DNA of 64,000 bases from Clostridia bacterium (GTDB lineage: Bacteria > Bacillota > Clostridia > Oscillospirales > CAG-272): NCBI GenBank assembly GCA_017937845.1, contig JAGBCV010000016.1, positions 1 to 64,000 of the forward strand, read 5' to 3'. A model generated the notes under the pieces. The model searched no databases. It saw only the letters and a program-made list of their open reading frames with translations, and was not told where the DNA came from. Shown here piece after piece: positions 49,164 through 51,264 of this stretch. The position numbers and the translations under genes were made by a program. The stretch's first letter is position 1, and the number at the start of each line of letters is the position of its first letter.

Positions 49164-49847
49164 TTATAGAGCAAGAATCTTTTTTACCGTCAAAATATTT
49201 TCATTTACGGTGAAGTGGACCTCGATGCTACCGAACGCCATCATATAGATGCGCTCGGGGTCATGCTGATAACCCGGTCGAGGATCTTCGCGGAGCAGGG
49301 CGATCACGCCGTCATAAAGATGCGGTGGAATTTGTGCTTTCAGATCGTCTGTGATTTCAACGGTGAGCGAGCCTTCGCCTGGACCTTTTGCAAAACCGCC
49401 TTGGGCTTCGGGGTGGGAGTCCGTATAGGCGAGGTAGGGCTTGACATCATAGATCGGCGTGCCGTCGAGGATATCTGCGCCTGTAACGTAAAGCACAGGA
49501 CCTTCGGGCGTGTGCAGATCGATGCCGACGAGCTTCACGGAGGAAAGTCCAATGGGGTTCGGTCGGAACGGGGAGCGTGTGGCGAAAACGCCCATGCGTT
49601 TATTGCCGCCGAGTCTTGGCGGGCGGACGGTGGGTGACCATTCGTCGCGGACGGCTTCTGAAAATTGCCAGATGAGCCAAAGGTGGGAATATCCTTCGAT
49701 GCCGCGGAAGGCGTCGGAGTTTCGGTATTCGGGTTCAAAAACGATTTTTGACGTGATGGTATCGACAAGTCCGCTTTGGCGTGGGATGCCGAACTTGGCG
49801 GTAAAGTCGTTTCGGATGTGGGCGATGACGGAAAGGGAATGGGTCAT
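49164..49847 (-). CDS. trmO: tRNA (N6-threonylcarbamoyladenosine-37-N6)-methyltransferase TrmO
   Basis: A 227-aa protein starting at ATG 49847 behind CTCGGAGG; the open frame continues upstream into the hairpin repeats, which is rejected. The TsaA/TrmO fold has AHIRNDFTAKFGIPRQSGLV, IEGYSHLWLIWQFSEA, FATRSPFRPNPIGLSSVKLV and DILDGTPIYDVKPYLAYTDS, with the C-terminal domain after about 165 residues. TrmO uses SAM to methylate t6A at position 37 of tRNA-Thr. Its promoter must lie in or next to the repeat array. Confidence 0.88.
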   Translation of the reverse strand: MTHSLSVIAHIRNDFTAKFGIPRQSGLVDTITSKIVFEPEYRNSDAFRGIEGYSHLWLIWQFSEAVRDEWSPTVRPPRLGGNKRMGVFATRSPFRPNPIGLSSVKLVGIDLHTPEGPVLYVTGADILDGTPIYDVKPYLAYTDSHPEAQGGFAKGPGEGSLTVEITDDLKAQIPPHLYDGVIALLREDPRPGYQHDPERIYMMAFGSIEVHFTVNENILTVKKILAL

Positions 49848-49869
49848 GGAAACCTCCGAGAAAAGTGGA

Positions 49870-50051
49870 ATGATATATTCGCTCCGCGAATATGATATAC
49901 GGCTTACGCCGTATGATATACCTCGCGTTGCTCGGTATGATATAATATCCGTTCCCACATATGCCGAAGGCATATATCATCCGCGAAGCGGGATATCATA
50001 TCGAAGATATATCACCCGTTCCGCAAGGAACGGATATCATTGCAAAAAGAG
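49870..50051. repeat. 182-bp multi-hairpin repeat, copy 1
   Basis: This is a chain of small palindromes joined by GATAT/ATGATAT links. Seen: ATATTCGC-TCC-GCGAATAT (49875-49893), ATACGGC-TTAC-GCCGTAT (49897-49914), ATACC...GGTAT (49918-49938), ATATGCC-GAA-GGCATAT (49959-49975), ATCCGC-GAA-GCGGGAT (49979-49994), ATATC-GAA-GATAT (49998-50010) and CCGTTCC-GCAA-GGAACGG (50016-50033). Alternatively ATATCCGTTCC (49945-49955) pairs with GGAACGGATAT (50027-50037) and closes a cloverleaf of the three GAA hairpins. The small reading frames within it are products of the palindromes, not genes. Confidence 0.85.
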
Positions 50052-50072
50052 ATTTGTTTTTGTTGTGAAAAA

Positions 50073-50254
50073 ATGATATATTCGCTCCGCGAATATGATA
50101 TACGGCTTGCGCCGTATGATATACCTCGCGTTGCTCGGTATGATATAATATCCGTTCCCACATATGCCGAAGGCATATATCATCCGCGAAGCGGGATATC
50201 ATATCGAAGATATATCACCCGTTCTGAGAGGAACGGATATCATTGCAAAAAGAG
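50073..50254. repeat. 182-bp multi-hairpin repeat, copy 2
   Basis: This is a direct copy of 49870-50051, offset by 203 bp and separated by a 21-nt AT-rich spacer. I count one change in the second hairpin loop (TTAC to TTGC) and a cluster of changes in the last hairpin (CCGCAA to CTGAGA) that partly keeps the pairing. Its end runs into the 5' arm of the tRNA terminator (TTGCAAAAAGAG); copy 1 ends with the same 12 bases, so part of the terminator belongs to the duplicated unit. Confidence 0.85.
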
Positions 50255-50285
50255 CATTTGTCAAAAGACAAATGCTCTTTTTGCA
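50244..50285 (-). terminator. terminator of tRNA-Arg
   Basis: A 19-bp perfect stem, TGCAAAAAGAGCATTTGTC and its complement, with loop AAAA, directly downstream of the minus-strand tRNA gene. The arm ends in TTTTT on the minus strand. Confidence 0.85.
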
Positions 50286-50362
50286 TGGCGCACCGGACAG
50301 GATTCGAACCCGCGACCTACAGAATCGGAATCTGTCGCTCTATCCAGCTGAGCTACCGGAGC
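50286..50362 (-). tRNA. tRNA-Arg (anticodon CCG)
   Basis: A 77-nt gene with encoded CCA, read on the minus strand. Acceptor 5' arm GCTCCGG, D-arm GTAGCTCAGCTGGATAGAGC, anticodon stem ACAGA/TCTGT with loop TTCCGAT (anticodon CCG, codon CGG), T-arm with GGTTCGAATCC, and 3' arm CCGGTGC followed by G and CCA. The acceptor stem has a T-T mismatch at the third pair (3-70); the other six pairs are Watson-Crick. A terminator follows immediately. Confidence 0.95.
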
Positions 50363-50476: not shown

Positions 50477-50734
50477 TTATTTTGCGAGGGCTTCTTCGAG
50501 CGCCTTTGCGAGCTGGTCGGGGCAGGAGGTGCCGCGTCCTCTGCAATCGGTGCCTTTTACTCTTGCGATCACGTCTTCGGCTTTCATACCTTTGACAAGC
50601 TTGGAGATGCCCTGTGTGTTACCATGGCAACCGCCGACAAATTCTGCGGATTCGATGGTGTTGTCGTCTGCAAGGGTGATCTTGATCTGACGGGAGCAGG
50701 TGCCTTTTGTGGTGTATTCGATACTCTTTGCCAT
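50477..50734 (-). CDS. TSCPD-domain protein (TIGR03905-like)
   Basis: An 85-aa protein. The domain shows IEYTTKGTCSRQIKITLADD, VGGCHGNTQGISKLVKGMKA and the signature GTSCPDQLAKALEEA, with three to four Cys residues. This small family is common in Clostridia and resembles the C-terminal TSCPD domain of NrdJ-type ribonucleotide reductases and related proteins, where Cys residues may bind zinc or iron. Function is not established. A TATAAT box lies at 50778-50773 on the minus strand. Own terminator. Confidence 0.85.
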   Translation of the reverse strand: MAKSIEYTTKGTCSRQIKITLADDNTIESAEFVGGCHGNTQGISKLVKGMKAEDVIARVKGTDCRGRGTSCPDQLAKALEEALAK

Positions 50735-50964: not shown

Positions 50965-51264
50965 AGCTTGATGTGCGATGAAGCGAGAGGTTGCCGCAAA
51001 GAAAGCGGGTAATTTTCGCAGAGTATGTCCGATAAACGGGCGCCAGTTTAAGGCGAACGATATGAGTGTTTGGGATATTGCAGTCGCGTGCGATTGTCAA
51101 TCCAAACGAAACAAGCGCGAGTACCAGCCGATGAAAATCGGCATTTTACACGGGCTACAGGAAACGCCCGGTGAGGTGTTCGCTACAAACTGAGTCAAAA
51201 TCACAACTTCCTGTGTGTTGTGAACTCGCCGCCAACAGCAAAATATTATAGGAGGCAAAATCAA
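50965..51264 (+). promoter_or_regulatory. long 5' leader of the S10 operon, structured
   Basis: About 300 nt lie between the promoter and rpsJ; this fills most of the 530-nt gap 50735-51264, whose other part is AT-rich with the TSCPD promoter. Hairpins visible: GCG-GGTAATTTT-CGC, CCG-ATAAA-CGG near 51030, GCCGAT-GAAA-ATCGGC at 51127-51142 and CACAAC-N9-GTTGTG near 51202-51222. Segments such as GCGAGAGGTTGCCGC and CTACAGGAAACGCCCGG recall leaders I have seen before rpsJ in other Clostridia, from memory. The role may be autoregulation by a ribosomal protein. No Rfam match can be checked here. Confidence 0.5.

Follow-up and report, generated by a model that had tools for sequence, protein, structure and literature searches.

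The window, the whole 64,000-nt stretch of DNA that was analysed, carries two near-identical copies of a hairpin-rich array between a tRNA-Arg(CCG) gene and trmO, copy B behind the tRNA and copy A before trmO, in agreement with the original prediction. The copies are direct repeats of 183 nt with 98% identity (49869-50051 and 50072-50254). The 203 bp by which they had been said to be apart is their start-to-start period, whereas the true gap between the repeats is 20 nt. Trimmed to its terminal heptamers, the array proper measures 171 nt per copy and leaves a spacer of 32 nt. Each array is built of eight heptamers (ATGATAT/GTGATAT), whose orientation reverses at the middle, and of the seven hairpins that had been predicted. 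The linkers between the hairpins proved to be an exact heptamer, reading (A/G)TGATAT on one side of the middle and ATATCAT on the other side. The order on the minus strand is ATGATAT-hp1-GTGATAT-hp2-ATGATAT-hp3-ATGATAT-hp4-centre-ATATCAT-hp5-ATATCAT-hp6-ATATCAT-hp7-ATATCAT. The features of the locus, all on the minus strand, are as follows.

49164..49847, minus: trmO, resident gene directly downstream of copy A; 22 nt from array end to ATG
49870..50040, minus: array copy A, trmO-proximal; 171 nt, 8 heptamers, 7 hairpins
50041..50072, minus: inter-copy spacer; its end is a degenerate version of the terminator 3' arm (ACAAATCTCTTTTTGCA)
50073..50243, minus: array copy B, tRNA-proximal; 171 nt
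50230..50240 (copy B) and 50027-50037 (copy A), minus: 5' arm of the long-range helix, ATATCCGTTCC
50219..50236 (copy B) and 50016-50033 (copy A), minus: hp1, competing local hairpin
50164..50211 (copy B) and 49961-50008 (copy A), minus: hp2-hp4 with heptamers; loops TNC on the minus strand
50148..50158 (copy B) and 49945-49955 (copy A), minus: central GGAACGGATAT, partner of the 5' arm
50080..50139 (copy B) and 49877-49936 (copy A), minus: hp5-hp7 with ATATCAT heptamers; minus-strand loops typically of GNA/GNNA type
49969..50042, minus: Rfam RF01706 (Gut-1) match in copy A, 56.5 bits (gathering 50)
50172..50245, minus: Rfam RF01706 (Gut-1) match in copy B, 55 bits (gathering 50)
50244..50285, minus: perfect terminator hairpin with T-run, directly after the tRNA-Arg CCA
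50286..50362, minus: tRNA-Arg(CCG), 3' end abutting the element
50477..50734, minus: TSCPD-domain gene upstream of tRNA-Arg, a conserved neighbour that anchors the empty-site comparison

Open reading frames running through the window copies contain the words AEGIYH and YDIISVP, and AEGIYH was also found in one relative. The trmO frame stays open into copy A (49847-49973, minus strand), so gene callers may extend TrmO by a false N-terminus (putatively MPSAYVGTDIISYRATRGISYGVSRISYSRSEYII...). No promoter-like site was seen between copy A and the trmO ribosome-binding site (49844-49870), and the empty site of a sister genome described below has one by eye; expression of trmO may depend on the array or on read-through. 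An S10-Clostridia ribosomal protein leader (RF03136) lies on the plus strand at 50969-51043, upstream of a ribosomal protein operon.

Fold of the array and its match to Gut-1

Compared with 200 dinucleotide shuffles, the window arrays fold more strongly on either strand (z = -4.8 and -4.7). Two alternative pairings are available, a long-range one between ATATCCGTTCC and the central GGAACGGATAT and a local one between CCGTTCC and GGAACGG, and two competing folds had accordingly been proposed. Among 41 distinct relatives, 99% of cells preserve the long-range helix, whereas the local hairpin is broken at one pair in 13 of the 41, and local hp1 gained no covariation support of its own from 43 aligned arrays. 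These 43 arrays all belong to the window's subfamily, and 95% of their stem cells are paired. The expectation that changes keep the stems was borne out, with 20 pairs carrying two-sided changes, a number reached in none of 500 shuffles.

The closing pair is C-G in 88% of 509 distinct hairpins. On the strand that reads TCA, GNA accounts for 168 of 270 triloops and GNNA for 123 of 195 tetraloops, and a TNC triloop occurs once. Since the loops are oriented in this way (291 GNA/GNNA loops versus 1 reversed triloop), each heptamer-plus-hairpin unit is directional, with the two halves of the array facing each other. G.T wobbles outnumber A.C wobbles 69:11 towards the TCA strand, decisively in the right half only. 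We claim no helical phasing, because the Rayleigh value for a spacing of 17-29 nt was lower than that expected from a simple bell-shaped spread. One hairpin unit is tandemly duplicated in locus L077 (about 2660-2712; AATTATCACGAAGTG...), which suggests that hairpin units may be able to multiply singly.

The window arrays are Gut-1 by sequence, and the RF01706 model spans only the 5' half of the array (hp1-hp3). Gut-1 entered the literature as a noncoding RNA from uncultured bacteria of the gut, found in human-gut metagenomes only (Weinberg 2010, PMC2864571). We doubt this free-RNA reading in the light of the genomic context of the arrays.

Copies, partner genes and insertion sites

The suggestion that the element is widespread proved correct: Gut-1 matches are present in 57 of 97 related genomes, with up to 42 per genome. 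The source genome contains 7 places detected by blastn and about 20 Gut-1-like places, several of them at contig ends, where collapsed repeats would be expected to lie. Heptamers differ between the elements of this genome (TGATAT, GTGAAAT, GTGATGT, ATGAAGC), with one word used throughout each element. A linker-agnostic parser recovered 69 arrays in 429 kb of collected loci and none in shuffled sequence. A search of sister strains for empty sites had been proposed, and in the sister genome G002 the trmO/tRNA-Arg locus consists of the terminator and trmO with no array; G002 is a diverged species, and its empty site is too diverged for a target duplication to be read. A decayed 5' part of the array is found at the same locus in G003. 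In blastn searches of phage and plasmid records the array found no match. Four pattern hits on viral contigs were chance coding matches and were rejected as phage carriage, and an IVP gene with an array occurred on two unannotated faecal phage contigs only.

In relatives, the array precedes a promoter, then a four-helix-bundle gene of PF05635/TIGR02436 (hereafter IVP) and then a variable cargo gene. The IVP gene lies immediately 3' of many arrays. Both IVP genes of the source genome adjoin an array; the window copies themselves are without one, and contig C45 of the same genome carries an array 97% identical to the window's, followed by IVP. Besides C45, 80 loci in other genomes have IVP beside the same array type, the array typically spanning about -217 to -50 relative to the IVP start (80 loci, other gut Clostridia). 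The read-through frame noted at trmO is present ahead of the IVP gene on C45 as well. Across 97 genomes, 44 have both IVP and Gut-1, 13 Gut-1 only, 10 IVP only and 30 neither (p=4e-7, rho 0.67), a statistic in which related genomes are not independent and carriers are spread over many genera. A 7-mer repeated at least 3 times was found upstream of 92% of the 65 IVP genes with enough upstream sequence. The share was 35% for 31 control ORFs and 2% for shuffles (p=1e-10).

Candidate moving enzymes did not behave in this way. REP pairs carry a short word at the hairpin foot in an inverted arrangement, and the array likewise has a short conserved word at each hairpin foot, inverted between its halves, as would suit REP/BIME-like palindromes spread by a RAYT (Y1 transposase). 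Copies of PF01797 do not correlate with Gut-1 copies across the 97 genomes (rho 0.14, p 0.18), whereas IVP does track them; we rejected the Y1 transposase as the mover and regard this explanation as highly improbable. Retro-mobility, with an Avd-like protein helping a reverse transcriptase in the manner of diversity-generating retroelements or of group IIC introns that target terminators, would fit the insertion beside terminators and the resemblance of PF05635 to Avd (PMC10053308). Reverse transcriptase (PF00078), however, has no match in the source genome G000 at E<=0.001 and shows rho 0.00 with Gut-1 across relatives; it too was rejected as the mover, leaving this route a very slim chance.

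Heptamers also accompany IVP genes elsewhere. Some IVP genes have tandem heptamers without hairpins. In type B IVP elements (L164, L183, L191, L199, L201, L203, L204) tandem heptamers replace the hairpins, and the sequence at the centre is a repeat of the 3' arm belonging to the terminator upstream. Plasmid IVP genes from five phyla (Cyanobacteria, Bacteroidota, Spirochaetota, Chloroflexota, Bacillota) are bracketed by their own heptamers on both sides, usually inverted (p=3e-8 versus 37 control genes); one of the queries for finding IVP records is only IVP-like, having been written by hand after residue 40. Defence-operon genes flank or neighbour some of the plasmid IVP genes that have heptamers (L295, L302, L304, L296, L297, L298), namely cas1 and cas2, HsdS/HsdR, DrmD/PglX and DUF1156/Swt1-HEPN.

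The heptamer follows the protein. On an IVP tree of 78 rows, in which clades mix host families, the heptamer label changes 19 times (minimum 16, shuffled 60). These labels were set partly by eye, and the test was repeated with words obtained by computation: IVP pairs with a common word show 72% identity versus 50%, a difference reached in 0 of 2000 permutations. That the word tracks the protein suggests recognition, and IVP probably does recognise its own heptamer on this comparative evidence; linked inheritance alone is a possible source of the agreement. The net charge of IVP is only about +2. Entries of its relatives in the PDB, 2RLD and 2GSC, contain five chains each, consistent with a ring.

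Arrays follow tRNA/tmRNA genes or protein genes. Within 200 nt of a tRNA or tmRNA lie 93 of 142 arrays, all on the 3' side, compared with 4 of 656 controls. The tip of the tRNA-Arg terminator, TTTGTC/GACAAA, is common to many cassette copies; this conserved tip is enriched and not universal (38/103 versus 4/50, where several of the tRNAs counted as without an array in fact bear arrays that the parser missed). Identity between cassette copies starts at the tRNA CCA. L221 and L232 are 98.9% identical over 622 nt and diverge on either side, to the left at the tRNA CCA and to the right at the cargo start; in L226 and L236 99% identity persists through the cargo. Cargo is varied, with 44 clusters in 63 loci behind IVPs of median 85% identity, and includes GNAT, NUDIX, nucleotidyltransferase and methyltransferase genes; in 28 loci its start overlaps the IVP stop as ATGA. 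The same pairs of IVP and cargo stand behind different tRNAs for a methyltransferase, a nucleotidyltransferase and DUF4279 (Pfam), indicating that the unit moves, and we consider it very probable that it is mobile. Three units occur in tandem in L127. At the right ends of L287, L293 and L236 the next cassette or another element family follows directly, elements being stacked behind one tRNA. Of the readings offered originally, that of a mobile palindromic repeat is supported by the many copies, patchy distribution, empty orthologous site, compensatory changes and occurrence of the unit behind different tRNAs; the array is also a possible recombination or insertion target.

The gap between array and IVP gene holds a promoter in 59 of 69 cassettes, with a 17-nt spacer in 53, and most have the last heptamer abutting the TTGAAA box. 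This arrangement would be expected if the array were mainly an operator or insulator, with IVP binding the heptamers by the -35 box and thereby regulating its own promoter, and with solo arrays as passive relics. Such a role would leave unexplained why the seven-hairpin array is kept in gene-less copies, how it moves between tRNAs and why inverted heptamers flank plasmid IVP genes on both sides, and we judge it unlikely as the main function. The promoter downstream and the intrinsic terminator upstream of the array bear also on the structured-RNA option of the original prediction, and since the array sits between them a free-standing Gut-1 RNA is not favoured. A noncoding RNA gene that is multicopy by chance would account for both copies passing the Rfam cut-off, for the strong fold and covariation on the Gut-1 strand, and for the excess of G.T over A.C wobbles on that strand in the right half. 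It fits poorly with heptamers that are inverted about the middle and also found with IVP genes, with IVP elements that have heptamers and no hairpins, and with a model limited to hp1-hp3. We therefore hold this explanation to be improbable.

Proposed mechanism and relation to known systems

Comparison between genomes established, at the level of sequence, the anatomy, copy number, IVP association, agreement of word with clade, recurrence of IVP and cargo behind different tRNAs, and empty site. We propose, with a probability of roughly 0.6, that the window array is the cis-acting heptamer-hairpin front end of a mobile gene cassette, in which an IVP-heptamer complex serves movement or maintenance. 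The full cassette would run from the tRNA 3' end through intrinsic terminator, array, promoter and IVP four-helix-bundle gene to the cargo gene. The window copies would have lost the IVP and cargo genes, or never had them, and would behave like MITEs alongside the full-length relative on C45. IVP, a pentamer in solved relatives, may form a ring that binds its own heptamer in single-stranded form; the hairpins would loop out and bring non-adjacent heptamers side by side, and the complex could then act in cassette movement or maintenance with an enzyme supplied by the host. DNA is favoured as the active form by the terminator and promoter context, and we suggest only tentatively that it is used single-stranded. 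Whether these elements make up an unrecognised cross-phylum cassette class, in which a four-helix-bundle ring protein reads clade-specific heptamer repeats around its own gene, is in our estimate an even bet; in Oscillospirales-type Clostridia this class would have hairpin-spaced words, tRNA 3'-end insertion and cargo.

With the window arrays read as gene-less copies of the front end of such tRNA-end cassettes, the motif catalogued as Gut-1 'RNA' would seem to belong to a type of mobile DNA not yet described. Among open-licence papers, the only literature covered, none was found that joins IVP, heptamers and Gut-1, and priority is not certain. If the proposal is true, the Gut-1 'RNA', IVP/S23 genes and orphan heptamer repeats are one system: a catalogued noncoding RNA would be reassigned to a mobile DNA element, the common and unexplained four-helix-bundle IVP family would gain a partner in its own heptamers, and intergenic heptamer repeats without a mechanism would gain a handle. 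If cargo is carried between tRNA loci, gut bacteria would have a gene-transfer route comparable to integron cassettes.

Several known systems share parts of this arrangement. Both window copies score above the gathering threshold of Gut-1, but Gut-1 was published as a noncoding RNA and is here a piece of a repeated dyad-symmetric element tied to IVP and cargo genes. The proteins of 23S rRNA intervening sequences (PF05635/TIGR02436) are those encoded by the cassette relatives, which likewise insert by structured RNA genes; the cassettes, however, lie outside 23S rRNA and have an array, their own promoter and cargo. Integron attC cassettes similarly tie small variable cargo to a hairpin-forming site and form tandem units, as in L127, whereas they consist of a promoterless gene and attC mobilised by IntI, and the present cassettes have their own promoter, an IVP gene and the site upstream of the gene. 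The array resembles MITEs in its inverted ends (ATGATAT...ATATCAT) and, like MITEs and REP/BIME elements, is short, dispersed, palindromic and gene-less, but differs from both in its seven-hairpin architecture, its clade-specific heptamer and an IVP partner in place of a transposase. Cyanobacterial STRRs are heptamer tandem repeats that are not known to have an associated protein or mechanism. Tandem repeats of the heptamer TAACTGA in Cyanobacteria, Bacteroidetes and Beggiatoaceae were reported without an associated protein or mechanism (PMC4679880). By description, both are like the present elements in having seven-nt words repeated in intergenic DNA, and such words bracket plasmid IVP genes.
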